Below the pieces are notes generated by a model. That model was not told the origin of the DNA and ran no database searches. It worked only from the letters and a program-made list of their open reading frames with translations. Source: Paenirhodobacter ferrireducens (GTDB taxonomy: Bacteria; Pseudomonadota; Alphaproteobacteria; Rhodobacterales; Rhodobacteraceae). From it: a DNA stretch of 64,000 nt. The position numbers and the translations under genes are program-made. This document shows positions 47,227-63,745 of the stretch, piece after piece. Every line of letters begins with the position of its first letter. The stretch's first letter is position 1. Where the stretch lies: contig NZ_SAVB01000027.1 of the NCBI RefSeq assembly GCF_004022265.1, forward strand, positions 1 to 64,000, given 5' to 3'.

Positions 47227-47276
47227 TGGCAGGGGTTGGGGGACTCGAACCCACGACCCTCGGTTTTGGAGACCGA
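47227..47276 (-). pseudogene. 3' half of tRNA-Trp (CCA), prophage attachment site
   Basis: Reading the minus strand, the anticodon arm TCGGT-CTCCAAA-ACCGA (47260-47276), the T-arm with GGGTTCGAGTCCC and acceptor end AACCCCTGCCA are present. What should be the D-arm and 5' acceptor strand are replaced by unrelated phage sequence from 47277. So only the 3' half remains. The T-stem also has a T-C mismatch, consistent with loss of selection. A full tRNA-Trp is expected at the far prophage end, rebuilt from the host 5' half and a phage-borne 3' half. Confidence 0.85.
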
Positions 47277-47425
47277 AAGCCTTGCATTTCAGCAGCTTTC
47301 AGTTCCGTTCTCTGGGTGTCTGAAACATTCGTAATATTTTACTAAGGCATTGATATTACGTCGCTTGATACGTTCTATTGCATTCCCAAGCGTTCACGAG
47401 CATTCTCTTGCAGCCACCCGAAAGT

Positions 47426-47444
47426 GTTACCCCAGCGTTACCCC
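47426..47444 (+). repeat. Tandem GTTACCCC repeat before integrase
   Basis: GTTACCCC occurs at 47426-47433 and 47437-47444, 11 bases apart (about one helical turn), just before the int start. It could be a pair of arm-type integrase sites or an operator. The 150 bases between this and the att remnant are otherwise AT-rich without an ORF. Confidence 0.5.
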
Positions 47445-47456
47445 GGAGCGCATGAG

Positions 47457-48704
47457 ATGCCCAAATCCCTGACTGCGAAGACCGTCGAAAACCTCAAGCC
47501 GAACCCTTCGAGACGAATTGAGATACCGGACCCGGCGTTGGCGGGGCTGTATCTGGTCGTTCAGCCTTCGGGGGTGAAATCATGGGCGCTGCGGTATCGG
47601 TTCGGCGGGAAGCCTGCCAAGCTGACGCTCGGGCGCTGGCCTCTGATGGGGCTGGCGGATGCGCGCAAGGCGGCGGCTGATACGCAAGGCCGGATAGAGG
47701 AAGGCGTGAACCCTGCCGCTGAGAGAAAGCGCGCAAAGGCGGACCGGGCAGAGGCGGAACTCACGGAGCGCGACAAGGTCAAGACGCTGATCGAACAGTT
47801 CGATAGACGCCACCTTTCGAAGCTGCGTGATGGGCGCGGCACCCGTCAGCGGCTCAACATTCATGTCTTGCCTGTCTGGGGAGAGCGGGAAATCCAGTCC
47901 ATCACCCGGCGCGACGTGATCGACCTTCTCGATGGGATCGTTGACGCGGGCACGGCGGTGACGGCGAACCGGATCAGGACAATCCTGTCCAAGTTCTTCA
48001 ACTGGTGTGCCAGCCGCGACATCATTGAAGTGCCTCCAACTTTGGGGGTCAAAGCCCCGGTGAAGGAATACAAGCGTGACCGGGTGCTGACCGACGATGA
48101 AATCCGGTGGCTCTGGCAGGCGACAGGAGAGGCCGCATATCCGTTCGGTCCTATGGCGCGCTTGCTTCTGCTCACAGGGCAGCGTCTCCGCGAGGTTTCT
48201 CAGATGACCGATGCTGAGATCGACGGCGATGTGTGGCACCTCGCGGCGGAGCGAACGAAGAACGGGCACCCGCATGATGTGCCGCTGACCGACCCCGTGC
48301 GCACCACCATAGCAGGCCTGCGCAGGCTCGACTCTCCCGCCGGGTATATCTTCACCACGACGGGCAAGACGCCTGTCAGTGGCTTCAGCAGGGCCATGAA
48401 AATACTCAACGCCCGCATGAACGCCATCGCCTCAAAGGAGCGGGGCGAGCCGGTCGAAATCCCTCACTGGATATTCCATGACCTGCGCAGGACAGCCGCG
48501 ACCGGCATGGCCCGGATCGGTATCCCTGTGCGCGTGACCGAGGCGGTGCTGAACCATGTCTCGGGCACAGGCGGCGGGATTGTTGCGGTCTATCAGCGCC
48601 ACGACTATGCCGACGAAAAGCGCAAGGCGCTCGATGCTTGGGCGGGTCTGGTGGAGCAGATCGTCAACGGCAAGGCCGATAATGTGGTGCGGATCAGGGG
48701 TTAG
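47457..48704 (+). CDS. int: Tyrosine-recombinase phage integrase
   Basis: 415 residues of the P4/DUF4102-type integrases: an N-terminal arm-binding DUF4102-like domain (about 1-90), a core-binding domain (about 105-190), and a catalytic domain with R243 (GQRLRE), K268, H341 and R344 (HDLRR), H367 and the nucleophile Y379 (VYQRHDY). It integrates the phage at the neighbouring tRNA-Trp. ATG 47457 follows a GGAG box; other in-frame starts upstream lie in the att region. Confidence 0.93.
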   Translation: MPKSLTAKTVENLKPNPSRRIEIPDPALAGLYLVVQPSGVKSWALRYRFGGKPAKLTLGRWPLMGLADARKAAADTQGRIEEGVNPAAERKRAKADRAEAELTERDKVKTLIEQFDRRHLSKLRDGRGTRQRLNIHVLPVWGEREIQSITRRDVIDLLDGIVDAGTAVTANRIRTILSKFFNWCASRDIIEVPPTLGVKAPVKEYKRDRVLTDDEIRWLWQATGEAAYPFGPMARLLLLTGQRLREVSQMTDAEIDGDVWHLAAERTKNGHPHDVPLTDPVRTTIAGLRRLDSPAGYIFTTTGKTPVSGFSRAMKILNARMNAIASKERGEPVEIPHWIFHDLRRTAATGMARIGIPVRVTEAVLNHVSGTGGGIVAVYQRHDYADEKRKALDAWAGLVEQIVNGKADNVVRIRG

Positions 48705-48884: not shown

Positions 48885-49286
48885 TCATTTCTGGTCATCA
48901 GATTCGTCTGCCAGAAACTTAGCGGAAAGGTCTGTCCACTTATCCTTCGTTGTGAAAAAGGCTGCGGAGTTCCCATCTTTCATGTCGACGAGTTTTATCT
49001 GAAGAAAGCCATACTTAGGGCTCTTTGAAAGCCTATCATTGATTTGCTCAATGCGGTCTATCCTGTCGTGGGAGCTGGTCGCATTGTCGACATAGTCCAT
49101 CCATTCGGTCATTGTCGCGCTATCCAGGTCGTCATCGGGAGCAGGATACTTCTCCTCCAGCGTGGCCACGATCTCGGCGTTCATGGAGCGATTGTTCGCT
49201 TCGGCGGCGGCTTTGATCCGGGCCCGCATCCCCGCAGGCGGACGGATAACGATCTGGCCCGTCTCTTCATTCTTGCTTCGTGCCAT
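48885..49286 (-). CDS. Arc-like ribbon-helix-helix DNA-binding protein (candidate lysogeny repressor)
   Basis: 133 residues. The N-terminal 50 form an Arc/Mnt-type ribbon-helix-helix (GQIVIRPPAGMRARIKAAAEANNRSMNAEIV), in which the beta strand (QIVIR) would read the major groove. The C-terminal part (about 55-133) is unrecognised and may allow oligomerisation or an extra function. It is the only leftward gene in the visible prophage and faces another RHH gene across a 116-bp region with three operators, the position of a phage repressor. Repressor role is inferred. Confidence 0.8.
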   Translation of the reverse strand: MARSKNEETGQIVIRPPAGMRARIKAAAEANNRSMNAEIVATLEEKYPAPDDDLDSATMTEWMDYVDNATSSHDRIDRIEQINDRLSKSPKYGFLQIKLVDMKDGNSAAFFTTKDKWTDLSAKFLADESDDQK

Positions 49287-49322
49287 TTGGATCTGCCCCT
49301 ATCCGTATTCCGATAGAAAATC

Positions 49323-49352
49323 ACAATATGTGACTATAGCCCCTTGACGCAA
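49323..49352 (-). promoter_or_regulatory. Leftward promoter for Arc-like repressor
   Basis: Minus strand TTGCGT (49347-49352), 18-base spacer, TATTGT (49323-49328). Its -35 overlaps the rightward -35 and its -10 is inside operator 1, giving a compact back-to-back switch. Weaker match than the rightward promoter. Confidence 0.4.
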
Positions 49353-49375
49353 TGCTCACTCAGTGTGACTATACT
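49344..49375 (+). promoter_or_regulatory. Rightward early phage promoter
   Basis: TTGACG at 49344-49349 with ACTATA (49368-49373, spacer 18) or TATACT (49370-49375, spacer 20) as -10; operators 2 and 3 cover or abut the -10, so a bound repressor would block it. Transcript would enter the RHH gene at 49403. Confidence 0.55.
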
Positions 49376-49402
49376 CACACGTTGTGACCATAAGGAGGGA
49401 AT

Positions 49403-49639
49403 ATGCAGACCATTCAGGTCGGTATCCGCTTCCCCGTCGAGATGAAGAAATGGCTTGAGCAACAAGCAGCGCTCAACCGTTCAAGTCAAAACTCGGAAGT
49501 GGTTCGCGCGGTTCGCGCAATGATGAAGGCAGCGGGGGTCCAGTTTGGCGACCACGCCCCCGCTGCCCCGGTGACCAAGGAAACCCTCAATCAGGAGGCA
49601 ACATCCCATGACGGTGATGATTCCGCAATCCGTGTCTGA
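49403..49639 (+). CDS. Second ribbon-helix-helix regulator, divergent from Arc-like gene
   Basis: 78 residues; the first 45 (TIQVGIRFPVEMKKWLEQQAALNRSSQNSEVVRAVRAMM) form a second Arc/MetJ-type RHH fold with the strand IQVGIRF. ATG 49403 has an AAGGAGG box seven bases upstream. It is the first rightward gene; in a two-repressor switch it would play the Cro-like role. The two RHH proteins differ clearly in sequence, so this is not a simple duplication. Confidence 0.8.
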   Translation: MQTIQVGIRFPVEMKKWLEQQAALNRSSQNSEVVRAVRAMMKAAGVQFGDHAPAAPVTKETLNQEATSHDGDDSAIRV

Positions 49640-49847
49640 GACAGGCATGGAGCACCCGTCGCGCCTCATGGCACCTGCGGCCATGCGCAAGGAACTTCTC
49701 GGCGGCATCAGCGAAGCAACGCTGTATCGCCTGACACATAACCCGGAAGCTGGCTTCCCGAAGGCCGTGAAGATTGGGCGCAAGTCGTTCTGGCGCGTCT
49801 GCGATGTGGTCGAGTGGATCGGTTCCCGCGCGGAGGTGCAGGCATGA
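49608..49847 (+). CDS. AlpA-family helix-turn-helix regulator or excisionase-like protein
   Basis: 79 residues; GGISEATLYRLTHNPEAGFPKAVKIGRKSFWRVCDVVEWI is the AlpA/MerR-like winged HTH seen in phage AlpA and some excisionases. The ATG at 49608 follows AGGAGG and lies inside the end of the upstream RHH gene. It may control int or act as the recombination directionality factor; no separate xis is visible, so it is the best candidate for that role. Confidence 0.75.
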   Translation: MTVMIPQSVSETGMEHPSRLMAPAAMRKELLGGISEATLYRLTHNPEAGFPKAVKIGRKSFWRVCDVVEWIGSRAEVQA

Positions 49848-50541: not shown

Positions 50542-50772
50542 ATGGAGGTAACACGTCAAAAGGCGTGGCGGCTGGCTCACCCCAGCCGTTACCACGCGCA
50601 CCTTGCCGTTGATCGCGCCAAGCGGCGCGGCGAGATCGAGTCACAGCCCTGCGCGGTTTGTGGCAATCCGAAATCCGAAGCCCATCACCCAGACTATCGC
50701 TTCCCGCTCAAGGTGATCTGGCTGTGCCGCAAGCATCACGTGCGGCTGCACAAGAAGGAGGGGCGGGCTTGA
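50542..50772 (+). CDS. Small HNH-like zinc-binding phage protein
   Basis: 76 residues. CAVCGNPKSEAHHPDY ... WLCRKHHVRLHKKEG holds a CxxC, an HH pair and a CxxHH cluster, the outline of an HNH/treble-clef fold. Too short for a standalone homing nuclease core to be certain; it could also be a zinc-stabilised DNA-binding protein. Overlaps the TTG start of the primase gene. Confidence 0.65.
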   Translation: MEVTRQKAWRLAHPSRYHAHLAVDRAKRRGEIESQPCAVCGNPKSEAHHPDYRFPLKVIWLCRKHHVRLHKKEGRA

Positions 50773-52646
50773 ACGCAAGAACCGAAACCCTCTCAGAAAA
50801 AGGACAGGCCGCGCTCGCATACGCCGGGCGCGGCTGGAAGGTGTGCCCGCTCCGGGACGGCACCAAGTCCGATCACCTGACCGGACACGGCGGCTATCAC
50901 AACGCCACGTCTGACCCAGATCAGGTGCGCAAATGGTGGATGCAATGGCCGGATGCGAACATCGGATTGAACCTCGAAGCCTCTGGCCTCGTGGTGCTGG
51001 ATGCGGACACATACAAGCCCGATTGCGGCTGGCAGAACTATATCGAAGGCCGTGAAGCCCCGTGGACACTGATCCAGAAATCGGCGCGCGGCGGAACCCA
51101 CTACATCTATCAGGCAGAGCAAGGCGTCGAGTATCTGGGAAAGCTGTGCCAAGGCGTCGATATCAAGCACAAGGGCTATATCCTCCTCGAACCATCGACC
51201 TTTGAGGGCGGGCAATATCGCTTCGAGACTGACGACGAGCCGGAACCGTGCCCCGATTGGGTGCCTCGCAAGGCTGGTGCGCCGGAAGGGGCAAAGCAGA
51301 CCGTCACGGAAGACGACCGGCTGTTGATCCTGCATCGGCTTGCTGACGCCCCGAATGACCTGTCGCGCGAAGATTGGGTGCGGCTCTGCTTCGCCCTCAA
51401 GCACGCTCTCGGAGATGACGGGCGAGAGGCGTGGCTGGACTTCTGCAATCGCTTCCCCGGCGAAAAGAAGCAAGGCGAGGCCGAACGGGTCTGGGATACG
51501 GCCAAGCCGGACGGGACTTCGAACGCGGGCACGATCTTCTATCTGTTGCAGACCCCTGCGCAGAAGGCGGTTGCTCCAAAGACCTTCAACCTCGTTGCGG
51601 TCGGAGATCTGGAATATCGCCCGCCTGTATTCCTTGCCGAAGGGTTGATCGAGACAGAGACGCTTGGCCTTCTCTTTGGGGATCCGGGTTGCGGCAAGTC
51701 ATTCCTCGCGGCGGACCTGTCTTTGTCCGTAGCCACTGGGGAGCCGTTTCACGGGCGTGCGGTAAAACAGGGGACCGTGATCTATATTGCGGGCGAAGGT
51801 CATAACGGTCTGGCGCGTCGCTTCAACGCCTGGGCGCAGCATCACGGGCGCAGCCTGAAAGGCGTGCCGATGTTCAAGAGCGAACGGGCGGCACAGTTCC
51901 TCGACGGCGCATCAGCGCAATCGGTCACAAATGCTGTGCGCTCACTGGCTGCCAAGGTCGGGGAACCGGCGCTGATCGTCGTCGATACTCTGGCCCGAAA
52001 CTTCGGTGGAGGCGACGAGAACAGCACCCAAGAGATGGGGCAGTTCATCGCAGCGATGGACGATCTGCGGTCAAACTGGCCCGAGTGCGTGCTACTGATC
52101 GTTCACCATTCCGGCCATGCAGAGAAGCAACGGGCACGCGGTGCTATGGCACTCAAGGGTGCCCTCGACTTCGAATACCGGCTCGAAAAGGAAGGGGATG
52201 CGCTGACCCTGACCAACACAAAGATGAAGGACGCAGAGCCGCCCGTCGATCAGGTCTTTGCGCTGGAAACGGTTGATCTCGAAAGAGGCGGATCGTCTGC
52301 GGTGCTGGTCGAAGGAGAGGCAGTTGTCAGGCGCGTGCGCCTCACGGCAACGCAGATGCTTGGCCTCACGACATACAAGACAGCGGCCCTTGCTCATGGC
52401 GTCTGGGATGATGGGGCGTTCAAGGGCGTGCAGTTGGAGGACTGGCGGGCGGAGTTCTATCGAAAGCATACGGGAGACACCTCGGAAGCCAAAAAGAAGG
52501 CCTTCCAGAGAGTGCGCAAGGACCTTGTCGATTACGGAAAGATGACCGCGACCGATGATGTCTATCTCGCCTGCGATCCTGCCGTTTCTCTGGAAATACT
52601 CATGAGCGGGACAGACGGGACAATACCGGGACATGTCCCGTCATGA
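50769..52646 (+). CDS. Phage prim-pol primase / RecA-type helicase replication protein
   Basis: 625 residues. N-terminal prim-pol domain (about 10-165) with the metal-binding pair D78/D80 (VVLDAD) and H111 (GGTHYIY); then a PriCT-like region (about 183-262); then a RecA/RepA-type ATPase with Walker A GDPGCGKS (304-311), Walker B D406 (LIVVDT) and LLIVHHSGH. I place the start at TTG 50769: it follows AAGGAGG by about 8 bases and overlaps the previous stop as TTGA, while the upstream ATG frame lies inside the HNH-like gene. It should prime and unwind phage DNA. Confidence 0.88.
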   Translation: MNARTETLSEKGQAALAYAGRGWKVCPLRDGTKSDHLTGHGGYHNATSDPDQVRKWWMQWPDANIGLNLEASGLVVLDADTYKPDCGWQNYIEGREAPWTLIQKSARGGTHYIYQAEQGVEYLGKLCQGVDIKHKGYILLEPSTFEGGQYRFETDDEPEPCPDWVPRKAGAPEGAKQTVTEDDRLLILHRLADAPNDLSREDWVRLCFALKHALGDDGREAWLDFCNRFPGEKKQGEAERVWDTAKPDGTSNAGTIFYLLQTPAQKAVAPKTFNLVAVGDLEYRPPVFLAEGLIETETLGLLFGDPGCGKSFLAADLSLSVATGEPFHGRAVKQGTVIYIAGEGHNGLARRFNAWAQHHGRSLKGVPMFKSERAAQFLDGASAQSVTNAVRSLAAKVGEPALIVVDTLARNFGGGDENSTQEMGQFIAAMDDLRSNWPECVLLIVHHSGHAEKQRARGAMALKGALDFEYRLEKEGDALTLTNTKMKDAEPPVDQVFALETVDLERGGSSAVLVEGEAVVRRVRLTATQMLGLTTYKTAALAHGVWDDGAFKGVQLEDWRAEFYRKHTGDTSEAKKKAFQRVRKDLVDYGKMTATDDVYLACDPAVSLEILMSGTDGTIPGHVPS

Positions 52647-52724: not shown

Positions 52725-52973
52725 ATGAACCACGACAGACGACTGACAGCCCAACCTCTCACGGCAGAGGCCTTCGACCTGGCATTCGTGCCGCGCAAGC
52801 GTCCGACGCTGTGGGGCATCGGTGCGATTGCCCGTTACCTCGGCGTGTCGCATGACAAGGTGCGCAAGCTGGCACGTCACCCACAAGTGCCGATCAACAA
52901 GCCGGAGGGCAGCGGCACCTGGTGTGCGGAGCCGGATGACCTTGACGCGTGGAAGCGAGGGCGGACGGGGTGA
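52725..52973 (+). CDS. Small helix-turn-helix phage protein
   Basis: 82 residues; GIGAIARYLGVSHDKVRKLARHPQVPINKPEGSGTWCAEPDDLDAW is an excisionase/AlpA-like winged HTH. It begins within the GGGACA repeat cluster, the last repeat ending seven bases before its ATG, so it may be autoregulated through them. Late-gene control or DNA binding at the origin are both possible; not decidable here. Confidence 0.7.
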   Translation: MNHDRRLTAQPLTAEAFDLAFVPRKRPTLWGIGAIARYLGVSHDKVRKLARHPQVPINKPEGSGTWCAEPDDLDAWKRGRTG

Positions 52974-53212: not shown

Positions 53213-54436
53213 ATGAATAAGCCCGATATTCAGGGCATGTTCAAGATACTCTCGAAGTTCACCCGCAAGTCTCTGTCCGAACCTGACGACGCATTGCTGT
53301 CGCTGTTCGGTGCTGTGCCGACTGTCTCGGGCGTGACAGTCACGGCAGCCTCGGCGCTGCGGGTTCCGGCTGTGGCCTCGGCGGTGCGGCTGATCTCGGA
53401 AGCGGTGGCCGATCTCGACGTGCTGGTGAAGCGCGTGGGGACGGATGGGGCCGAGACCGAGGAGAAATCGCATCCGCTTCTGGGCATCCTGCGCGGCGAG
53501 GCGAACGACTGGACGGACGGCTTTACCTTCATCCGCGATCTGATGATCGACGCGCTGACCCGCGATGAGGGGGGCCTTGCCTATGTGAACCGGGTGAACG
53601 GGCGCGTGGTCGAGGTGATCCGCTATGCGCCGGGGGCGATCTCGGTTGATTACGATCCGCTGACGCTCGAACCGACCTACCGCTTGCAGGGCGCTCCGAT
53701 CCCCTCGCAGAACGTGGTTCACTTGCGCAGCCCGTTCGGCAGGGCCCCCTTGTCTCTGGCACGCGAGGCGATTGCGCTGGCGACGGTGCTGGAACGTCAC
53801 GGCTCGAAACTCTTTGGCAACGGTGCGCGGCCTTCTGGCCTTCTCAAGTTCCCGAAGGGGATGGGTGAAGAGGCGGTGAAGCGGGCGCGTGAGGGCTGGC
53901 GTCAGACCCATGAGAACGGCGACACGGGCCGAACGGCGATCCTTTACGACGATGCCGACTTCGTTCCGCTGACCTTCAACAGCGTCGATGCGCAGTATCT
54001 CGAACTGCGGACCTTCCAGATTGTCGAGATCGCGCGGGCGTTCCGGGTTCCGCCGTCGATGATTTACGAACTGAGCCGCGCCACGTGGTCGAACGCGGAA
54101 CAGATGAACCTGGAGTTCCTGACCTACTGCCTCGATCCGTGGATCAAGGCGATGGAAGGGGCGCTGCGTCGGGCGCTGTTCATGGCAGACGAGCGGGCGA
54201 AATACGCGATCCGCTTCGACCGTGATGACCTGACGCGGGCCGATCTGGCGACCCGTTCGATGGCGATCAACAGCCTGATCGCAAGCCGGGTGCTGAACCC
54301 GAACGAGGGCCGCGAATGGCTTGGCCTCGATCCTTACGAGGGCGGCGACGAATACGCCAACCCGAACACCGGATCGTCGCAGCCCAATGAGGCTAGCCCG
54401 ATAAAATCAGACGAGGGTGAAGATGGAACTGAATGA
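53213..54436 (+). CDS. Phage portal protein, HK97 family
   Basis: 407 residues. ALRVPAVASAVRLISEAVADLDVLV near the start, the middle VVHLRSPFGRAPLSLAREAIALA and FRVPPSMIYELSRATWSNAEQMNLEFLTYCLDPWIKAMEGALRRALF (portal core) are typical HK97-type portal sequences. It forms the dodecameric DNA gateway in the capsid vertex. Start is uncertain: ATG 53213 has a poor Shine-Dalgarno match and ATG 53237 (MFKILSKF) is an alternative typical of portals. Confidence 0.9.
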   Translation: MNKPDIQGMFKILSKFTRKSLSEPDDALLSLFGAVPTVSGVTVTAASALRVPAVASAVRLISEAVADLDVLVKRVGTDGAETEEKSHPLLGILRGEANDWTDGFTFIRDLMIDALTRDEGGLAYVNRVNGRVVEVIRYAPGAISVDYDPLTLEPTYRLQGAPIPSQNVVHLRSPFGRAPLSLAREAIALATVLERHGSKLFGNGARPSGLLKFPKGMGEEAVKRAREGWRQTHENGDTGRTAILYDDADFVPLTFNSVDAQYLELRTFQIVEIARAFRVPPSMIYELSRATWSNAEQMNLEFLTYCLDPWIKAMEGALRRALFMADERAKYAIRFDRDDLTRADLATRSMAINSLIASRVLNPNEGREWLGLDPYEGGDEYANPNTGSSQPNEASPIKSDEGEDGTE

Positions 54437-54809
54437 CCTGATCTCTGCATCCGCCGATCATGAGCGCGGCGCGTGGCTCGAACTGGCGCACCCGGTGACC
54501 GGGATGCTGACGGGGATGCGGGTCAAACTCGCTGGCCCTGACAGCGACACGCAGGCCAAGGCGCGGCTGCGCATGGCGGATGACCTCGGGGAATATGCAG
54601 AACTCGACGGCACGCTGACGGCAGAGAAGCGCGAGAAGGCGCGGCTCGACTGCCTCGCCCGCTGTTTCCTTGACTGGGACATGACCGAGGACGGGCAGCT
54701 TCTGCCCTTCACGCACAAGAACGTGGTGCGCTTCCTGCGCGCGGGCACCTGGGTTCAGGCGCAGGTCGATGCTTTCGCGGGCGACCGTCGCAATTTCGGG
54801 GGGCTGTGA
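54423..54809 (+). CDS. Phage morphogenesis-module protein, unknown
   Basis: 128 residues, no family recognised, helical in outline (RMADDLGEYAELDGTLTAEKREKARLDCLARCFLDWDM...). ATG 54423 overlaps the portal end and follows GAGG by six bases; a GTG six bases earlier is possible. Located between portal and protease-capsid genes, where some phages have a head-assembly accessory gene. Confidence 0.65.
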   Translation: MELNDLISASADHERGAWLELAHPVTGMLTGMRVKLAGPDSDTQAKARLRMADDLGEYAELDGTLTAEKREKARLDCLARCFLDWDMTEDGQLLPFTHKNVVRFLRAGTWVQAQVDAFAGDRRNFGGL

Positions 54810-54810
54810 G

Positions 54811-56313
54811 ATGGACCGGATCGAGATCAAAGCGGATCTGTCGATTGACGACGCGGGCGCTATCACCGGCTTGGCGTGGCCGTTCGGTTCGCCGGATCGG
54901 GTGGGGGACGTGATCGAGGCCGGGGCGTTTGCCAAGGCGGCGGCTCCTTTGCCCATGCTCGACAGCCACGATCAGAAGACGGTGGTCGGCGTCTGGGACG
55001 AAATCAGTGAGACGCCCGAGGGTCTGACGGTCAAGGGGCGGCTGTTGATCGAAGATGTGCAGCGTGCCCGAGAGGTCCGGGCGCTGGTGCAGGCAGGGGC
55101 GATGCGCGGCCTGTCGATTGGCTTTCGGGCCGCCAAGGCGCTGCCCCGTCAAAAGGGCGGGCGCACGATTGAAGACCTCGAACTTCTGGAAATCAGCATC
55201 GTCGCGGTCCCGGCACATCCGGGCGCGCAAATCACCTCTGCAAAGGACATGACTATGGCAGGCGAAAATGAAGACGGCATTGCGGCGCTCGAAGCCAAGA
55301 TGACCGAGATTGAAAAGAAGGCCGATACTTCGGCCCTCACGGCGCGCCTCGACAAGATCGAAGCGAAGATGAACCGCCCGGGCACCGAGACCAAGCCCGA
55401 GGCGACGGACGAGGTGAAAGCCTTTGCGGCCTATCTCTCGACCGGCACGACCGAAGGAAAGGCGCTGACCACGGCGGCGGATACGGCGAACCACATCCTT
55501 GCCCCCGAACAGGTCGAGAGCGAGTTCATCCGCAATCTGGTCGAGTTCAGCCCGATCCGCACCATTGCGGACGTTCGCAGCACGACTTCGGCCAAGGTGA
55601 TCTTGCCGAAGCGCACCGGCATCACGAACGCTGTCTGGGTGGGAGAAACCACGGCCCGCACCGGCTCGGAGCCGACCTTCGATCAGGCCGATATCGAGGT
55701 GAAGGAGATCGCGACCTATGTCGATATCTCGCTCCAGATGTCGGAAGACAGTTCGAACGTGCTGACCGAGGTCAACCTCGCACTGGCCGAGGACTTCGGG
55801 CAGAAGGAAAGCCTTGCCTTCGTCAACGGCTCGACGACGCTCGAACCCAAGGGCTTCATGCAGGATGCGACGATTGCCACGACCGACAACGGCAGCGTGA
55901 GCGCGCTCGATCCTGATGCCCTGATCGCGCTGATGTATGCGCTGCCTGCGACCTATCGCAATGCGGGCACTTGGGTGATGAACGGCAACACGCTGGCCGT
56001 GATCCGCACCCTGAAAGACGGCGACGGACGTTACCTGTGGCAGCCATCCTATCAGGCGGGTCAGCCTGAGACGATCCTCGGGCGTCCGGTGGTTGAGGCG
56101 GTCGATATGCCTGATATCGCAGAAGATGCGCAGCCGATCATCTACGGCGACTTCATGCGGGGCTATCGGATCTATGACCGGCTGTCGCTGGCGATCCTCG
56201 CTGACCCCTATTCGGTGCGGGTGAACGGGCTGGTCCGGTATCACGCGCGCCGTCGCGTTGGCGCTGACGTGGTGCGGCCTGCGGCCTTCCGCAAGCTGGT
56301 CATGGCGGTCTGA
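54811..56313 (+). CDS. Fused prohead protease and major capsid protein (HK97 type)
   Basis: 500 residues in one frame. Residues 1-145 are a prohead serine protease with H53 (LDSHD), S102 (RGLSIGF) and E127 (ELLEIS) as catalytic triad. A coiled-coil delta-like region follows (about 152-190), then an HK97 capsid fold from about 210 (AFAAYLSTGTTEGKALTTA..., later YGDFMRGYRIYDRLSLAIL). An internal ATG at 55255 with AAGGA seven bases upstream would give a 352-residue capsid protein alone, in frame. So protease and capsid may be made both fused and separately. Confidence 0.9.
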   Translation: MDRIEIKADLSIDDAGAITGLAWPFGSPDRVGDVIEAGAFAKAAAPLPMLDSHDQKTVVGVWDEISETPEGLTVKGRLLIEDVQRAREVRALVQAGAMRGLSIGFRAAKALPRQKGGRTIEDLELLEISIVAVPAHPGAQITSAKDMTMAGENEDGIAALEAKMTEIEKKADTSALTARLDKIEAKMNRPGTETKPEATDEVKAFAAYLSTGTTEGKALTTAADTANHILAPEQVESEFIRNLVEFSPIRTIADVRSTTSAKVILPKRTGITNAVWVGETTARTGSEPTFDQADIEVKEIATYVDISLQMSEDSSNVLTEVNLALAEDFGQKESLAFVNGSTTLEPKGFMQDATIATTDNGSVSALDPDALIALMYALPATYRNAGTWVMNGNTLAVIRTLKDGDGRYLWQPSYQAGQPETILGRPVVEAVDMPDIAEDAQPIIYGDFMRGYRIYDRLSLAILADPYSVRVNGLVRYHARRRVGADVVRPAAFRKLVMAV

Positions 56314-56667: not shown

Positions 56668-57123
56668 ATGACAGTTTTCACCACGAACGGCGCAAAGATC
56701 TATATCGGGGCGTCGATGGATATCACCTCGGGCACGGTGGCCGCGGCTGACTTCACCTCGCAGACCTTCACCCAGATCAAAGAGGTCCAGTCGATCGGCA
56801 CGCTCGGCGATGCGGCCAACGAGGTCACCTTCGCCTCTCTGGAAGACGGGCGGACGCGGCGGTTCAAAGGCACGAGAGATGCGGGCACGATGGAACTGAC
56901 CTGCGGCCTCGATGAGACAGATGCCGGGCAGATCGCGCTCAAGGCGGCAGAGGCGACGAGCGACAACTACGCCTTCAAGGTCGAACTGCCGGACGGATCT
57001 TCGCGGCTCTTTGCGGCGATGGTCGGCACGGCGCAGGAAGCGGTTTCCGAGGCGGATAACATCATCACGTTGACGGCGACGCTCTGGATCAACTCGAACG
57101 TGGTCAGGGTGGCGGCGGAGTAA
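56668..57123 (+). CDS. Phage tail tube protein, copy 1
   Basis: 151 residues, beta-rich, with the tail-tube pattern TMELTCGLDETDAGQIALKAAEAT and PDGSSRLFAAMVGTAQEAV. Aligned by eye with the next gene it shares the (T/S)xxLDxTDAGQIAL core and PxGxSRxxxA. Tail tube subunits form the hexameric inner tube of siphophage tails. One base after the HNH gene. Confidence 0.8.
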   Translation: MTVFTTNGAKIYIGASMDITSGTVAAADFTSQTFTQIKEVQSIGTLGDAANEVTFASLEDGRTRRFKGTRDAGTMELTCGLDETDAGQIALKAAEATSDNYAFKVELPDGSSRLFAAMVGTAQEAVSEADNIITLTATLWINSNVVRVAAE

Positions 57124-57126
57124 TCC

Positions 57127-57546
57127 ATGAAGTTCGCCGCATCAGGATCGAAGCTGTTCATCGACAGCAGCGGGTGGGTGCAGATCACCGGCGTCGAGAC
57201 CCTGAGCGGTCTCGGCGGCGAGTGGGGCATGCTCGATCAACAGGTGATTTGCGAAACGAACGAAGTGCCCATGGTCGAGTTCATGAAGCAGAGCCTTCGC
57301 CCTTCGGCCATGAGCCTCACCCTTGCGCTCGATCCCACGGATGCGGGGCAGATCGCCCTTCATGCGGCCTTTGCCGCGTTCGATGCGACCCCGGCGTTCA
57401 AGATCACCTTTCCGGGCGGAACGTCACGCGAATGGACGGCCTATGTCACGGCCTTCACCGACGATCTGAACAGCGCCGATGACATGGCGCGGGTCAACGT
57501 CACCTTGCAACTCACGGGCCTGATCACAAGGAGCGAAGACACATGA
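57127..57546 (+). CDS. Phage tail tube protein, copy 2
   Basis: 139 residues; SAMSLTLALDPTDAGQIALHAAFAAFD and FPGGTSREWTAYV mirror the previous gene, so the two are paralogues. One may be the main tube subunit and the other a tail terminator-proximal or minor tube variant. Overlaps the following connector gene by four bases. Confidence 0.75.
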   Translation: MKFAASGSKLFIDSSGWVQITGVETLSGLGGEWGMLDQQVICETNEVPMVEFMKQSLRPSAMSLTLALDPTDAGQIALHAAFAAFDATPAFKITFPGGTSREWTAYVTAFTDDLNSADDMARVNVTLQLTGLITRSEDT

Positions 57547-57842
57547 TCGTCACCGCCGCACAGGTCAAGGCGCAACTGAACCTCGATGACGCCATCGACG
57601 ACGATCTTGTCGAGGTGAAGGCGAAGGCCGCGCAAAACCACATCGAGCGTCTTCTCGGGTTCAAGATCGAGGAAGAGTTCGGCGCGGTCGATCAGGACGA
57701 AGTGCCGCCCGCGCTGATCGAGGCCGTGCTTCAGCTTGCCGCGCATTGGTATGAGAACCGCGAAGCCGCGGGTGATGCCACCGATCCCATCCTGTTCGGG
57801 GTGGGTGAGATCGTGCGCGAATATCGGGGGTTCACCTTCTGA
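57543..57842 (+). CDS. Head-tail connector protein (HK97 gp6-like)
   Basis: 99 residues; VTAAQVKAQLNLDDAIDDDLVEVKAKAAQNHIERLLG and LQLAAHWYENREA are typical of the gp6-like helical adaptor that binds the portal ring. ATGA overlap upstream, one-base overlap downstream with the gp10-like gene. Confidence 0.85.
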   Translation: MIVTAAQVKAQLNLDDAIDDDLVEVKAKAAQNHIERLLGFKIEEEFGAVDQDEVPPALIEAVLQLAAHWYENREAAGDATDPILFGVGEIVREYRGFTF

Positions 57843-58318
57843 TGGCCGATGACCTCGCCAGCTTTCAGGCAAAGCTGCAGGCGCTCGGGCGCTCTGCCTC
57901 GAAGTGTGTGGGCAAGGCGATGGAGACCTCGGCGGAAGAGATCTGCGACCTCGCCAGGGCGGCTTGTCCGGTCGATGATGGCGACCTGAAAAAGTCCATC
58001 GGCTGGACATGGGGCGACGCGCCAAAGGGCAGCGTGAGCATCGGCACGGTGGGCGACAATGCGGCGATGCGGATCACGATCTATGCGGGCGATGCCAAAG
58101 CCTATTACGCCCGATGGGTGGAGTTCGGCACGAAAGCCCATGCGATCGGCAAAGGCTCGAACAGCAAGCTCAAGGGCAAAAGCAACCAGACCGGCGCACA
58201 GCACAATGGTGCAAGGGCGCGTCCGTTCTTCTTCCCGGCCTACAGGCTCGGGCGCAAGCGGGCGATCAACCGGATCAAGCGGGCAATCTCGAAGGCCGTG
58301 AAGGAGGCCGCGACATGA
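57842..58318 (+). CDS. HK97 gp10-family tail component
   Basis: 158 residues; LGRSASKCVGKAMETSAEEICDLARAACPVDDGDLKKSIGW and YYARWVEFGTKAH match gp10/tail-completion proteins that cap the tail tube and join it to the head. The C-terminus is basic (RLGRKRAINRIKRAISKAVKEAAT). Overlaps both neighbours. Confidence 0.85.
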   Translation: MADDLASFQAKLQALGRSASKCVGKAMETSAEEICDLARAACPVDDGDLKKSIGWTWGDAPKGSVSIGTVGDNAAMRITIYAGDAKAYYARWVEFGTKAHAIGKGSNSKLKGKSNQTGAQHNGARARPFFFPAYRLGRKRAINRIKRAISKAVKEAAT

Positions 58319-58728
58319 GTGCAGACCTCGAACTTCAAAAGGCGATCCGCGCGGCTTTGGTGGCTGACGGCGGTGTCACGGCACTGGTGCCTGCATCGAA
58401 GATCCTCGACATGAACGCGGCCCCGGCTCCGAACCCGTCGATCATTCTGGGCGAAAGTCAGGTGATCGACAACGGCTCAAGCCTCGCGGGCGATCATGAG
58501 CAGATCGTCCACACGCTCCACATCTGGAAAGAGGAAGCCTCGCTTGTGGGGGTCAAGGGCATTGCTTCGGCAATCCGGGGCGCGCTGGCTGGCAGGTTGA
58601 GCCTTCCGGCCCCTTACCACGTCGCGGGGCAGAAGGTGGCCTCTGCGCGCTTCCTGCGCGATCCTGACGGGGTGACCTCGCACGGGGTGGTGACGCTCGA
58701 AGTGCTGATCTCGGGGGACGCGCCATGA
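58315..58728 (+). CDS. DUF3168-type tail terminator-like protein
   Basis: 137 residues. LELQKAIRAALVADGGVTALV start and IWKEEASLVGVKGIASAIRGALAG are DUF3168 features; the family acts as tail terminator (gpU-like) in related phages. ATGA overlaps on both sides. The longer frame (from 58009) is a shadow of the gp10 gene. Confidence 0.82.
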   Translation: MSADLELQKAIRAALVADGGVTALVPASKILDMNAAPAPNPSIILGESQVIDNGSSLAGDHEQIVHTLHIWKEEASLVGVKGIASAIRGALAGRLSLPAPYHVAGQKVASARFLRDPDGVTSHGVVTLEVLISGDAP

Positions 58729-59048
58729 AGTCGGGAAAGCTGCGGCATCATATCCAGATCGAAGACCCCTCGGTGGCGGTCGATGATTACGGCACGCCCG
58801 TCGAGACGGGGGCGGTGGTCTATACCCTGCGGGCCGAGGTGATCCAGCAGACGGCGCAGGAATACGTGCGCGACCGGGGCGACGTGACCGAGGTGACGGT
58901 GGCCTTTCGCGTGCGCAATCCGGGCGGGGTGACGACCTCGCACCGCGTCCGGTTCGACGGTGCGGCCTACGATATCCGGCAGGTCGTGCCGATCGAGAAC
59001 GGGCGCGGGCTGGAGCTGCAAACGGTGAAGATCGGGGGTGACGCATGA
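58725..59048 (+). CDS. Phage head closure protein
   Basis: 107 residues; GKLRHHIQIEDPSVAVDDYGTPVETG and FDGAAYDIRQVVPIENGRGLELQTVK match the head-tail adaptor/head closure family (SPP1 gp16-like), a beta-barrel that seals the connector after packaging. ATGA junctions upstream and downstream. Confidence 0.85.
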   Translation: MKSGKLRHHIQIEDPSVAVDDYGTPVETGAVVYTLRAEVIQQTAQEYVRDRGDVTEVTVAFRVRNPGGVTTSHRVRFDGAAYDIRQVVPIENGRGLELQTVKIGGDA

Positions 59049-59440
59049 AAGGCGTTAAACCCGAACTGCGTGAAGACCCCGAGGCGGTGACGGTTCTCGA
59101 TCCGCCCGAGTGGATGGGGGCCGATGCGCGCGAGGAATGGGAGCGGGTGATGCCGATCCTTGCGGCACGGCGCATCCTGTCGGCGGCGGACCTCGGGGGC
59201 TTGGAAAACTACTGCATCGCCATTGGCACGGCGCGCGAGGCCGAACGGCTGATCCAGAAATTCGGGCTGGTGACGGAAACCGAGACGGGCCTCAAACGCA
59301 ACCCGGCTGTCGGCATCCAGTCGGAGGCAATCAAGACGGCGCGGCTGATCGGGGCGGAGATGGGGTTGACGCCCGTGTCCCGCTCGCGGCCCGCGATCCG
59401 AGACGATGAGGACGATGATGACCCGTTCGACCTTTCCTGA
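59045..59440 (+). CDS. Terminase small subunit, P27 family
   Basis: 131 residues; LDPPEWMGADAREEWERVMPIL...LSAADLGGLENYCIAIGTAREAERLIQKFGLV and KRNPAVGIQSEAIKTARLIGAEMGLTPVSR are typical P27-type TerS. It would recognise the packaging site. The end overlaps the start of the large subunit by 23 bases. Unusual place: downstream of the connector genes. Confidence 0.88.
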   Translation: MKGVKPELREDPEAVTVLDPPEWMGADAREEWERVMPILAARRILSAADLGGLENYCIAIGTAREAERLIQKFGLVTETETGLKRNPAVGIQSEAIKTARLIGAEMGLTPVSRSRPAIRDDEDDDDPFDLS

Positions 59441-61016
59441 ATGGATCTACGACGGTTCTGAAATCCCCGACCCTCTGGGCTTCGGGGAACGGGCGGTGAC
59501 ATTTCTCAAGAGGCTGCGGCACCCCAAGAGCCGCCAGCCGGTGCAACTCGATCTGTGGCAAGAGCGGATCGTGCGGCGCATCTATGGCCCGCGCCATGAG
59601 GATGGCACGCGGATCGTCAAGACGGCGGTGCTTCTGGTGCCGCGTGGCAATCGCAAGACCTCGCTCGCGGCCTTGCTCATGGCGCTGCATACCATTGGCC
59701 CGGAAGCCATGCCGAGGGGCGAGGCGATCTGTGCGGCTGCGGCGCGCGATCAGGCCCGCATTGCCTATGAGGAATTGAAAGGGCTGATGCTGGCGCATCC
59801 TAAGGTGGCGTCCAAGGTGGCGATCCGCGACAGCAAGAACACCATTAGCTTCCCGAAACTTGGGAGTTTCTGCAAGGCGATCTCGGCGGATGCGGGCGTT
59901 CAGCATGGGCGCACGCCTGTCTTTGTGCTGGCCGATGAATTGCACGCATGGCCGAAGCGCGACCTTTGGGATGTGCTGCGCTCTGGTCTGCCCAAGACGC
60001 GCGGTTCGCTTCTGGTGGTGGCGACCACGGCGGGGCGCGGGCAAGAGAACGTGGCTTGGGATATCGTCGAGGACGCCCGCAAGGTGGCGCGCGGCGAGAT
60101 CGAAGATCCGTCGATCCTGCCCATTCTGTTCGAGGCAGAGCGCGATTGCGACTGGACCGACGAAGATATCTGGTATCGGGTGAACCCCGGTCTGCGTCAT
60201 GGCTATCCCGATATTGAGGGCCTTCGCCAGCTCGCCCGGGAGGGGCAGCGTCGGATCGGCGACCGGGAAGCCTTCCGACAGCTTCACCTGAACATCTGGC
60301 TCGATCACGCAACGCAGCCCTTCGTCGACATGGCGATCTATGACGAAGGCAGGGGCCCGGTCGATCTGGCTGACCTCGAAGCCAGGCAAGCGCCGTGCTG
60401 GATCGGTGTTGACCTGTCGTCGAACTCTGACCTGACGGTTGCGGTGGCGTGCTGGAAGGACGGGGATGACGGCTATCAGGTCTGGCCGTGGTTCTTCTGC
60501 CCCGAAGAGAACCTGCGCGACCGGGAGGACCGCTCCGGCGTGCCCTATACCACATGGGCGGAACAGGGCTTCATCATCCCGACGCCGGGGAATGTGGTCG
60601 ATTATCGCCGGGTGGAAGACGAACTGAGGGAACTCTGTGCGCGGTTCAACGTGCGCGAGATCGCCTTCGACCCGCATCTTGCGCGCAACATGCTGAACAA
60701 TCTTCTCGAAGACGGACTGCCTGCGGTCGAGATGCGGCAAGGCTGGATCACTATGGCCCCGGCGGTGAAGGAGCTGGAACGGGCCATAATCGGGCACGGG
60801 TTCCGCCACGGTGGGCACCCGATCCTGCGCTGGAACTTCGACAATATCGAGGTGGTGACGGACAAGGCCGGGAACATGGCGTTCCACAAGGGCAAGTCGA
60901 AAGACAAGATCGACGGCGCGGTTGCATCGGCGATGGCCGTGGCGCGGGCTGCGGCGGGCGAGGGCGGGTTCGCGCTCGAAGCCGACTGGATGAATGACGA
61001 AATGCTTTGGGCATAG
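59418..61016 (+). CDS. Terminase large subunit
   Basis: 532 residues. N-terminal ATPase with an unusual Walker A PRGNRKTS (75-82) and Walker B VLADE (D173, E174), then an RNase H-type nuclease domain with acidic centres including GVDLSSNSDL. It packages DNA into the prohead through the portal. I chose ATG 59418 because GAGGA is five bases upstream; ATGs at 59406 and 59415 are less well spaced. Confidence 0.93.
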   Translation: MTRSTFPEWIYDGSEIPDPLGFGERAVTFLKRLRHPKSRQPVQLDLWQERIVRRIYGPRHEDGTRIVKTAVLLVPRGNRKTSLAALLMALHTIGPEAMPRGEAICAAAARDQARIAYEELKGLMLAHPKVASKVAIRDSKNTISFPKLGSFCKAISADAGVQHGRTPVFVLADELHAWPKRDLWDVLRSGLPKTRGSLLVVATTAGRGQENVAWDIVEDARKVARGEIEDPSILPILFEAERDCDWTDEDIWYRVNPGLRHGYPDIEGLRQLAREGQRRIGDREAFRQLHLNIWLDHATQPFVDMAIYDEGRGPVDLADLEARQAPCWIGVDLSSNSDLTVAVACWKDGDDGYQVWPWFFCPEENLRDREDRSGVPYTTWAEQGFIIPTPGNVVDYRRVEDELRELCARFNVREIAFDPHLARNMLNNLLEDGLPAVEMRQGWITMAPAVKELERAIIGHGFRHGGHPILRWNFDNIEVVTDKAGNMAFHKGKSKDKIDGAVASAMAVARAAAGEGGFALEADWMNDEMLWA

Positions 61017-61025
61017 GAGGCCAGC

Positions 61026-63395
61026 ATGGCGACGGAAGAGGATATCGCGCGGCTTGTGGTCGCTCTGGAAGCCAAGGTCTCGGACTTTCAGAAGAAGATG
61101 GACGCCGCCGAAAAACGCGGCTCGAAGACGTATCAGACCCTGCAACGCGGCTCGAAGCGGGCCACGGATCAGATGGCGTCTGACATGTCGAAAGGTGCGG
61201 GCCGGATCAATCAGGTGCTGGCGGCGGTCTCGGGGAATATCGGGTCGTTCGGCAAGGCCTTTGCGGGCGGCCTGATCGGCGGGGCGGTGACAGGGGCCTT
61301 TGCTGCCATCACTGACAATCTGCGCGAGACGGTCAAGGGCGTGGCCGAGGTGGGCGACGAGGCGAAGAAGTCGGGCCTCGGTGTGCAGGCGTTTCAGGAA
61401 TGGTCCTATGTCGCGGAACAGAACCGCGTCAGCATCGACGCGCTGACGGACGGCTTCAAGGAACTGTCGCTGCGGGCCGATGAATGGATCAAGACCGGCT
61501 CGGGATCGGGCGCGGAGAGTTTCCAACGTCTGGGATTCACGGCGGACGATCTGGCGAAGCGGCTCAAGAACCCTTCGGACCTCATGCTTGAGATCGTGAG
61601 GCGGTTGCAGCGGTTCGATCAGGCGGCACGTATCCGCATCATGGATGAACTTTTCGGCGGCACGGGCGGGGAGCAGTTCGTTCAGTTGATCGACCAAGGG
61701 GCCGATGGATTGCAAAAGACGATCCGGAGGGCGCATGATGTCGGCGCGGTTCTCGACAGCGAGATGATCGACAAGGCGCAGGAGATCGATCGGCAATGGT
61801 CGGACCTGACGGCGCGGGTGTCGAACTTCGCGAAGACTGTGGCCGTGGAGCTCGCGAACATCCCCTGGAACGTGGTGAATACAAAGCTCTCCGAGCTGTT
61901 CTCGAACGAGCAGGTCGGCCGTTCGATCCTCGGGGATAAGGTCTATGAAGCCCTCAAGGAGATGGGGGCACTGACTGACGAACAGGTGACAAAGGTCGAG
62001 ACCCTGCGCGACCGATATTCGGGCCTTTCGGATGCGGCGCAGGACGTGGGCTTGCAGCTTGCGAGTGCGGCCTCGACGGCTGACATGCTCGGCAACGATG
62101 CGCTTTGGCAGGTGCTGGCGACGGCTTCGGCCGACATGCGCGCGCTGTCCGATCAGTTTGCCCAGGGGAAAATTACCGGCGAGCAATTTGCCGAGGGGAT
62201 GGACGGTATCCGCAAGAAGGCGGCGGATGCGCTCGAACAGCTGGACAGCATCGACAAGGCACAGTTCTCGGGGGTGATCTCGGCGCTCGGTGGGCTTGGC
62301 CGGAAGCTTCTCGACCTGATCGACAATGCCAAGACGCTCAAGGCGGCGCTGCCGGGCGGGTCCGCAGCAATCGAGGACACGCGGGGAGAGGCGATCTCTG
62401 AGGCTCGCTCTGGCAGCTACGATCAATCTTCGCCCTACGCGCCCACAACAAGCCCAACGCCGAAGGCCGCGCCACCGATGATCAGCGAGGGAACCGGATC
62501 GACGGGCGGCAGTTCGAAGAAGTCCGGCTCCTCGAAAAAAACGGTGCAGGATCAGATCGACGAGATCGCACAGGACACGGCGGCATTGCAGGCGCAGACG
62601 GCAGCCTTCAACGAAGCCATCGGCAAGGGCACCGAATACGGCGACATGGCAACCTATGCCGCGACGAAGGCGAAGTTGCTGACGGCAGCACAGCAAGAGG
62701 GCAAGACCGTCACCCCGGAACTTGCGGCAGAGATCGAGAAGGTGGCGCAGGCTTACGGCAAGGCGGCGCAGGGTTCGGACGAGGCGCGGGACAATCTGGC
62801 GCGGATGAAGGCTGAGGCAACCGCCGGGGCCAATGCCCTGAGCAACGTGTTCCTGTCCGTCACGGATGGAGTGGACGGTCTCAAGTCGGCGCTGGCAAGC
62901 CTGTTGCAGCAGATCGCCTCGGCGCAGATGAACAAGGCCTTTGCCTCGCTCGCGACCTCGGGCGGCACGACTGGCAGCATCTTTTCTGCGATTGGATCTC
63001 TGATCGGTGGCTATGCCTCGGGCGGTTATACGGGCGACGGCGGACGTAACGAACCTGCGGGCGTGGTTCACCGGGGCGAATATGTGTTCTCGAAAGCTGC
63101 GACGGCGCGGATTGGTGCGGGCAACCTCGAAGCCATGCACCGGGGAGCGATCAAGGGCTATGCCTCGGGCGGATATGTCGGCGGTTCGACCGGATCGGCC
63201 TCGGGCGGGGCGTCGAACGTCAAGGTCGATGTGGGCGTGAGCGTCGATCAGAACGGCAACCTTCAGGCCTATGTGAAGAACGTCTCGCAGCAGACGGTTT
63301 CCAGTGCTGCCCCGTCGATTGTCTCACAGTCGGTTAAGGCCACGCAGAACCACCTCGTTAAATCCCGCATGATCAATTCGAGGAAGACCCTATGA
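61026..63395 (+). CDS. Phage tail tape measure protein
   Basis: 789 residues. N-terminal coiled coil (VVALEAKVSDFQKKMDAAEKR), Gly/Ala-rich hydrophobic stretch (about 80-100), a long helical middle, and the characteristic C-terminal GGYASGGYTGDGGR...AGVVHRGEYVFSKAA...GYASGGYVGG motif of lambda-type tape measures. It sets tail length and takes part in DNA injection. By the usual rule of thumb its size predicts a tail of moderate length. Ten bases after TerL. Confidence 0.9.
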   Translation: MATEEDIARLVVALEAKVSDFQKKMDAAEKRGSKTYQTLQRGSKRATDQMASDMSKGAGRINQVLAAVSGNIGSFGKAFAGGLIGGAVTGAFAAITDNLRETVKGVAEVGDEAKKSGLGVQAFQEWSYVAEQNRVSIDALTDGFKELSLRADEWIKTGSGSGAESFQRLGFTADDLAKRLKNPSDLMLEIVRRLQRFDQAARIRIMDELFGGTGGEQFVQLIDQGADGLQKTIRRAHDVGAVLDSEMIDKAQEIDRQWSDLTARVSNFAKTVAVELANIPWNVVNTKLSELFSNEQVGRSILGDKVYEALKEMGALTDEQVTKVETLRDRYSGLSDAAQDVGLQLASAASTADMLGNDALWQVLATASADMRALSDQFAQGKITGEQFAEGMDGIRKKAADALEQLDSIDKAQFSGVISALGGLGRKLLDLIDNAKTLKAALPGGSAAIEDTRGEAISEARSGSYDQSSPYAPTTSPTPKAAPPMISEGTGSTGGSSKKSGSSKKTVQDQIDEIAQDTAALQAQTAAFNEAIGKGTEYGDMATYAATKAKLLTAAQQEGKTVTPELAAEIEKVAQAYGKAAQGSDEARDNLARMKAEATAGANALSNVFLSVTDGVDGLKSALASLLQQIASAQMNKAFASLATSGGTTGSIFSAIGSLIGGYASGGYTGDGGRNEPAGVVHRGEYVFSKAATARIGAGNLEAMHRGAIKGYASGGYVGGSTGSASGGASNVKVDVGVSVDQNGNLQAYVKNVSQQTVSSAAPSIVSQSVKATQNHLVKSRMINSRKTL

Positions 63396-63745
63396 CCCCG
63401 GCACAGGACCGACTCAAGGATCAACTCTGCGCGGCGCTGGCGGGCATCCTGCGGCGCAAGAAGGTGCATATCCCAGAGGCAGGCTTGCCCGTCTGGGAAT
63501 CCTTCCTGACGCTGACCCAGACCCGGCGGCACCACGCCAATGGGCCGGAACCGATCAGCCTGTTGGAGATCGAGGCTTACAACCGGATGTTCGGGCCGAT
63601 CTCTCGCCAGCATGTCGAGATGCTTCTGGCGATGGATCTGGTCTGGCTCGAATGGGCTGTGAAGCCGAGTGGCAAATCAGCGAAGAAGAAAGAGCCGGTC
63701 ATTCCCCTCACGGCGGAGATGTTCGATTTCGCGTTCGGGAGATAG
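63392..63745 (+). CDS. Phage tail-module protein, unknown
   Basis: 117 residues. ISLLEIEAYNRMFGPISRQHVEMLLAMDLVWLEWA resembles small proteins near tape measure genes that are often called tail assembly chaperones, though those usually precede the tape measure. Overlaps the tape measure stop by four bases. Function uncertain. Confidence 0.65.
   Translation: MTPAQDRLKDQLCAALAGILRRKKVHIPEAGLPVWESFLTLTQTRRHHANGPEPISLLEIEAYNRMFGPISRQHVEMLLAMDLVWLEWAVKPSGKSAKKKEPVIPLTAEMFDFAFGR

Follow-up and report, generated by a model that had tools for sequence, protein, structure and literature searches.

A divergent Mnt/Arc-type gene pair as the probable main switch of a small integrated element in Paenirhodobacter ferrireducens

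The gene pair and its control region

The window analysed here, a stretch of 64,000 nucleotides from Paenirhodobacter ferrireducens, contains two divergent genes for ribbon-helix-helix (RHH) proteins with a short control region between them. The leftward gene (48885..49286, minus strand) encodes P1, a putative long Mnt-type RHH repressor of 133 residues with a hypervariable C-terminal part, and the rightward gene (49403..49639, plus strand) encodes P2, a short Arc-type RHH protein of 78 residues. P1 matched the Pfam family Arc with an E-value of 1.2e-9, and a profile of P1 and its relatives matched AmrZ (1e-16) and Mnt (1e-12), AmrZ being the best solved relative. The model of full-length P1 was poor outside the RHH part (pTM 0.35). 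For P2 the Pfam match to Arc (E 0.01) was under the cut-off, and a profile of P2 plus nine relatives matched solved Arc and AmrZ chains with E-values of 3e-5 to 3e-4. The P2 model was of the helix-helix kind, with Arc chains as the top Foldseek matches (probability 0.98, but E 0.29). Both proteins are RHH proteins by sequence or fold, albeit P2 weakly so in Pfam, and the initial annotation was right to place an RHH/RHH pair in the immunity position. A tblastn search of annotated phages with P2 returned nothing at E-values up to 1.

Three copies of the palindrome TCACA-N3-TGTGA had been listed for the control region. Their positions were correct, and two are exact matches, O1 (49321..49333, TCACAATATGTGA) and O3 (49375..49387, TCACACGTTGTGA), whereas O2 (49356..49368, TCACTCAGTGTGA) carries one mismatch; none of the three is assigned to a strand. 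O1 covers the putative leftward -10, which belongs to the P1 promoter, and O2 lies between the putative rightward -35 and -10, both in line with the family geometry described below, and O3 is close to the putative rightward start. The centres at 49327, 49362 and 49381 give spacings of 35 and 19 bp. The bases directly after O1, O2 and O3 read CTATA, CTATA and CCATA, exactly the C(T/C)ATA flank that had been noted for each site, and a C(T/C)A flank was also found in locus L170 and at the two sites listed for locus L117.

Exact copies of TCACA-N3-TGTGA were found in the 64 kb at O1 and O3 only, compared with a mean of 0.02 in shuffled sequences, none of which (0/100) contained two. When two mismatches were allowed the pattern was at chance level across the whole window (10 seen, 14.9 expected), and the operator signal therefore lies in the clustering of the sites. 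Chance palindromes as the source of the operators were ruled out by the shuffle tests, in the window as well as in the family search.

A putative rightward -35 box, TTGACG (49344..49349, plus strand), and a putative leftward one, TTGCGT (49347..49352, minus strand, read from the sequence as the complement of 49347-49352), share 3 bp. The overlap of divergent -35 boxes pointed out earlier is thus present, but a strict sigma-70 scan gave zero promoters and both promoters are consequently treated as putative. In many relatives TTGACGCAAT or close variants of it lie between O1 and O2. When a separate P2 operator was sought in the relatives, only this shared core emerged, and it is equally explicable by the overlapping -35 boxes. 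An inverted repeat, CTATC-N8-GATAG, is located between the P1 start and O1 (window 49299-49316).

The element that carries the pair

An exact 50-bp repeat at window position 47227 and contig position 64738 corresponds to the 3' end of a tRNA-Trp gene that is intact on the right side (L006:2738-2813), and these att repeats define an element of about 17.6 kb. The left copy (47227..47276, no strand) is within the window and the right copy (contig 64738-64787) is outside it, so that the window holds the element except for its last 0.8 kb. The annotation was based on PHROGs scans of 26 hand-picked ORFs between the att sites, and on Pfam scans of some of them.

All features named in this paragraph are on the plus strand. 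A tyrosine integrase gene (47424..48704; Pfam, PHROGs) stands to the left of the pair. An AlpA-family regulator or excisionase gene (49608..49847; Phage_AlpA, E 1.6e-6) overlaps the end of P2 and is followed by genes for a Prim-Pol/PriCT_2/AAA replication protein, the true start of which is probably further in (50658..52646; Pfam), and for a second AlpA/excisionase-like HTH protein (52725..52973) with weak matches to HTH_17 (E 0.011, under the cut-off) and phrog_66 (E 1e-4). Then follow genes for a portal (53213..54436; PHROGs), a head maturation protease fused to the major head protein (54769..56313; PHROGs), two major tail (tube) proteins (56668..57546; PHROGs), a head-tail adaptor with neck/tail completion, tail terminator and head closure proteins (57543..59048; PHROGs and Pfam), the small and large terminase subunits (59045..61016; PHROGs), and a tape measure protein with a tail assembly chaperone (61026..63745; PHROGs and Pfam). 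HNH or treble-clef genes make up the remaining scanned ORFs, together with a few unknowns.

Among the 26 ORFs, the PHROGs scans recognised no tail-tip, receptor-binding, fibre, holin, endolysin or other lysis gene, though unknown types could escape such a search. The host of the pair had been taken for an ordinary temperate phage, a description that does not fit a 17.6-kb element in which tail-tip and lysis genes are unrecognised, and a mainstream autonomous temperate siphophage was rejected on this account. Nor was a CI-like gene recognised among the same 26 ORFs. HTH_3 gave 30 matches across the genome at E-values up to 0.1 and none on the element's contig, and a viral record of 16.8 kb with a P1 identical to that of the window (G316) contained neither HTH_3 nor S24. 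These searches agree with the earlier remark that no CI-like gene is visible and, since none was recognised among the 26 ORFs, the RHH pair is the best candidate for the element's main switch.

The element is similar to cf-PICIs in being small and bounded by att sites, and in encoding, besides an integrase, a capsid, portal and terminase of its own. However, cf-PICIs are not known to carry tail genes, while the element in the window encodes a tail tube, a tape measure and tail chaperones, and membership was rejected on the presence of these tail genes. The main cf-PICI host groups named in PMC10803314 include no alphaproteobacteria.

A second divergent Arc pair is present in the same genome, on contig C13 (L007:10325-11839). 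It has its own TGTCC-type palindrome region and is followed by a Rha/KilAC antirepressor gene (Pfam Phage_pRha, ANT), as in a P22 immI look-alike.

Relatives of the pair and their operators

P1 and P2 served as baits for loci in viral contigs and genomes, and the resulting sample favours close relatives and is not random. Of 305 sequences collected, 275 had a divergent Arc-like pair and 30 had none, six of the latter being without an Arc gene and included for other reasons. A lone Arc gene without a close divergent partner was seen in 24 Arc-bearing stretches, and also in phage phi3. Removal of repeated stretches left 181 distinct pairs, to which viral contigs contributed 116, named genomes 56 and other sources 9; the hosts of the 56 were Rhodobacterales (49), Hyphomicrobiales (6) and one unplaced. 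With the genome of the window included, the P1 profile was found in 51 of 390 genomes at the level of the order and 3 of 385 at the level of the class, and P2 in 18 of 295 genomes of the family. The initial annotation had proposed a search for paired RHH genes with conserved sites; the pairs do recur, 181 times, but the palindrome sequence varies between lineages.

In a blind search the best three-copy palindrome exceeded all 25 dinucleotide shuffles in 155 of the 181 pairs (about 7 expected), and odd-centred palindromes were better in 168 pairs as against 5 for even-centred ones. Three strong sites were found in 96 pairs, two in 63, and one or none in 22. The geometry of the window, with spacings of about 36 and then 20 bp, was shared by 85 of 121 dereplicated pairs, and another 15 had two sites on the other side; the O1-O2 spacing in the family peaks at 34-37 bp.

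The gene after the pair (n=181) was an integrase in 68 cases, a count raised by a roseobacter group of 25 pairs, an antirepressor-type gene in 48, AlpA in 5 and another gene in 60; sampled integrase and antirepressor members were confirmed with Pfam. In the annotated phages Pyei1, phiAX1 and Oslo, which also have the pair, the gene downstream encodes an antirepressor or a KilA-N protein. In the window, AlpA directly follows P2, and the pair might mainly control AlpA-dependent excision, with the integrated state kept by host or helper factors and not by P1. A precedent is found in PICMI satellites, in which AlpA is required for excision and its expression triggers activation, leaving satellite gene expression unaltered (PMC10803314). 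On the other hand, with AlpA after only 5 of the 181 pairs and the other gene types after the great majority, we regard this explanation as unlikely.

The C-terminal tail of P2 (window 49529-49636) is similar to the P2 tails of further AlpA-type elements, including some, such as L012, in which P2 has a different RHH domain. Since the tail is kept where the RHH part differs, this suggests that the RHH part of P2 is exchanged as a cassette in AlpA-type elements.

A near-alike P1/P2 pair followed by a small ORF and an integrase gene occurs in many roseobacter species, among loci L087-L122, many of which are roseobacter genomes. This type makes up 25 of the 181 pairs, its integrases fall in a cluster of 45 proteins, and it has two good operators only. 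It may represent a domesticated form of the pair.

The viral records differed in size with the downstream gene. Records with an antirepressor had a median of 41.7 kb (28 of 38 at least 30 kb, 8 of 38 below 20 kb) and those with an integrase a median of 13.2 kb (24 of 29 below 20 kb, 4 at least 30 kb); the corresponding sizes were 16.8 kb for AlpA (3/3 below 20 kb) and 16.9 kb for other contexts (30 of 46 below 20 kb, 10 at least 30 kb). CI-like genes were compared in 42 of the 116 records, comprising 19 of the 38 with antirepressor, each above 34 kb, and 15 of 29 with integrase, 3 of 3 with AlpA and 5 of 46 others, each below 20 kb. A CI-like gene (HTH_3 or S24 over the cut-off) was present in 16 of the 19 large antirepressor records versus 1 of the 23 small ones (Fisher p 9e-8), in a set hand-picked by class and size that confounds size with context and may include fragmentary records. 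In the lone positive small record the gene lies near a contig end. Small records seldom carry CI, and it does not follow that context alone decides.

Thirteen viral records had both terminase and tape-measure homologues in the examined stretch; ten of them measured 16.2-18.8 kb, three 9.4-14.3 kb, and none was longer. Records with a tape-measure homologue alone or together with a capsid ranged from 9.6 to 48.8 kb. A smaller element of 9.9 kb, bounded by 48-bp repeats at a tRNA-Cys gene (L057:3749-13647), has a pair of the same type together with genes for a replication protein, terminase, capsid, portal and integrase, and no tail gene was recognised among its scanned proteins. Exact att repeats in tRNA genes were found for the window element, L057 and L081; in a scan of 25 loci, 21 had no such repeat in the examined stretch.

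These sizes and boundaries bear on the possibility that the pair is a leftover of a P22-like immI, carried by a prophage in decay and without any important control function. Such decay would be in line with the frequent antirepressor-type contexts (48/181), with the unrecognised tail-tip and lysis genes, and with the survival of 25 near-alike roseobacter pairs, mostly beside an integrase. In contrast, the records with terminase and tape measure cluster at 16.2-18.8 kb (10/13, with three shorter and none longer), three elements have exact att repeats in tRNA genes, and P1 and operators remain matched, as described below, which would point to selection. A remnant is in our judgement rather improbable.

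The correspondence between proteins and operators was assessed in 121 pairs, obtained from the 181 by dropping 58 with weak motifs and then 2 near-duplicates. Operator distance correlated with P1 beta-strand distance (r 0.50, against at most 0.16 in 600 permutations), and the partial correlation was 0.45 when the P2 strand and both helix regions were controlled. For the P2 strand r was 0.18, and 0.05 given the P1 strand (p 0.07), and a single P2 strand type, RKPMQLR, was paired with many different operators. The information about the operator peaks at P1 residues 4 and 6, and residues 1-2 are tied to the inner two bases. The P1 core of 35 residues after the strand was recognisably similar in 7060 of 7260 P1 pairs, compared with 31 of 7260 for the tail. 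By this comparison P1 is a predicted conserved reader whose C-terminal part is swapped, in antirepressor and integrase contexts alike.

K4/M6 went with TGTC in 24 of 26 pairs, K4/V6 and K4/I6 with TGGC in 17/17 and 11/11 (together 28/28), and R4 with M, I or L with TGCC in 10 of 11. Exceptions were K4/L6, with TATC in 3 of 4, and R4 with T or Q, which was not TGCC (6 loci); Q4 was loose, Q4/V6 going with TCAC in three of five loci, those three all of the window type. The half-site thus appears readable from P1 residues 4 and 6 for the commoner types, and the code is not general. In AmrZ of Pseudomonas aeruginosa (PMC3325190), K18, V20 and R22 contact GGC half-sites, and a GTC half-site is bound 9.8-fold worse. 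Its beta strand is DKFVVR, and the preference for GGC is what the K/V code would lead one to expect. The AmrZ K and V would correspond to residues 4 and 6, and the AmrZ-DNA contacts are consistent with this part of the code; AmrZ regulates genes of its own host, whereas P1 is in the position of a phage switch.

For a test outside the derivation set, 114 loci were newly fetched, of which 101 had a pair, and scoring was confined to distinct pairs that had a code entry and whose P1 core was not identical to any training core (14). Thirteen fitted and the single miss was a weak motif call, although 8 of the 14 (7 right, 1 wrong) were of the roseobacter group, left out of the derivation for weak motifs and with sites seen beforehand, and 11 of 14 had motif scores below 30. 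The other six all fitted; sites of several of their near relatives had been seen beforehand, and the farthest, L393 (58% identity), was the only one far from all. Kinship was partly controlled with a tree of the remainder of P1: residue 6 showed four independent switches on supported branches, on average 3.9 concordant and none opposed, which is not significant (19 on all branches), and residue 4 showed one on supported branches, too few for significance.

Three equal sites recall lambda OR and would suit a true CI/Cro analogue, with P1 and P2 competing for the same three operators in opposite order of preference. P2 residues 4 and 6 hold some, albeit weak, operator information (0.2-0.34 bits), and 12 of 13 loci in which P1 and P2 share a code entry fitted, a result that P1 alone suffices to explain. 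However, in the eight loci for which P1 and P2 give conflicting predictions, the operator followed P1 in seven, P2 in none and neither in one, and none of three P2-only entries fitted, which together with the P2 correlation of 0.05 given P1 and the many operators of RKPMQLR makes competition of this kind quite unlikely. Reading of the same sites by both proteins was set aside as the main case on the strength of the discordant loci. The operators appear to follow P1 and not P2, and binding of both proteins to these sites, as the initial annotation had it, is therefore unlikely.

A proposed switch and its relation to known systems

Taken together, the module of divergent Mnt/Arc-type RHH genes is probably the main repression switch of this small integrated element. 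The pair, the operators, their conservation and geometry and the match of P1 to operator are established by comparison; from these we infer P1 binding, repression, the trigger, the role of P2 and mobility of the element. P1 would bind through its N-terminal beta strand to three copies of one odd-centred palindrome. On O1 it would cover its own promoter and limit its own synthesis, and on O2 and O3 it would cover the promoter of the P2-AlpA-replication operon, keeping AlpA, excision and replication off. The rightward operon would open once P1 is inactivated, the probable trigger being a signal or a protein of a helper phage that targets the hypervariable C-terminal part of P1. At that stage P2 would play the role of Arc in P22 and damp the promoters from another site, possibly the TTGACGCAAT core.

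The module resembles P22 immI, in which a long RHH gene (mnt) and a short one (arc) likewise diverge from overlapping promoters. Measured from the start of the -35, O2 and O3 lie at 18 and 37 bp, about where P22 has Oarc (about 15 bp) and Omnt (about 43 bp; 14 and 39 bp when an annotated midpoint and a start one base off are used), and by analogy P1 seems to occupy both places. On the other hand, P22 immI has one Mnt operator and one unlike Arc operator, while the window has three like ones; ant lies downstream of arc in P22, while AlpA follows P2 here. P22 also has a separate C2/Cro switch, whereas a CI-like gene was unrecognised for the window element (HTH_3 on the contig, PHROGs for 26 ORFs, HTH_3/S24 in G316). 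In PMC8022706 immI is described as secondary immunity. The archaeal virus SSV1 has an RHH protein, F55, that has been likened to CI in the upkeep of lysogeny (PMC5569661); F55 is a single protein with tandem-repeat sites, from a virus unrelated to the window element. The architecture was earlier called distinct, should it prove to be the main lysogeny switch, but F55 is an earlier case of an RHH protein in control of lysogeny, and the pair itself is P22 immI-like. What is new is the use of a Mnt/Arc-type module without ant and apparently without CI, with three operators of one kind. Titles and abstract openings in the literature, in which subscription journals are poorly covered, contained no divergent Arc-pair main switch, no RHH code for such repressors and no tip-less alphaproteobacterial satellite.

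In SaPIs the repressor Stl senses helper-phage proteins. A wider proposal, conceivable but rather less than probable, is that a widespread and so far undescribed group of Rhodobacterales mini-prophages or satellites relies on the pair as its sole immunity switch, its members having either head, tail tube and tape measure (about 17 kb) or a head alone (about 10 kb). On this proposal heteroimmunity would arise as two residues of the P1 beta strand change in step with the operator, which would make RHH recognition a readable code, and the hypervariable P1 tail would sense helper-phage proteins in the manner of Stl.

Textbook phage switches are helix-turn-helix CI/Cro pairs, and in small elements a beta-sheet DNA reader seems to take their place. 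More than 100 natural operator-protein pairs make RHH specificity partly legible, and immunity groups might be predictable from sequence. A set of tip-less mini-prophages is also indicated, which may depend on helper phages.
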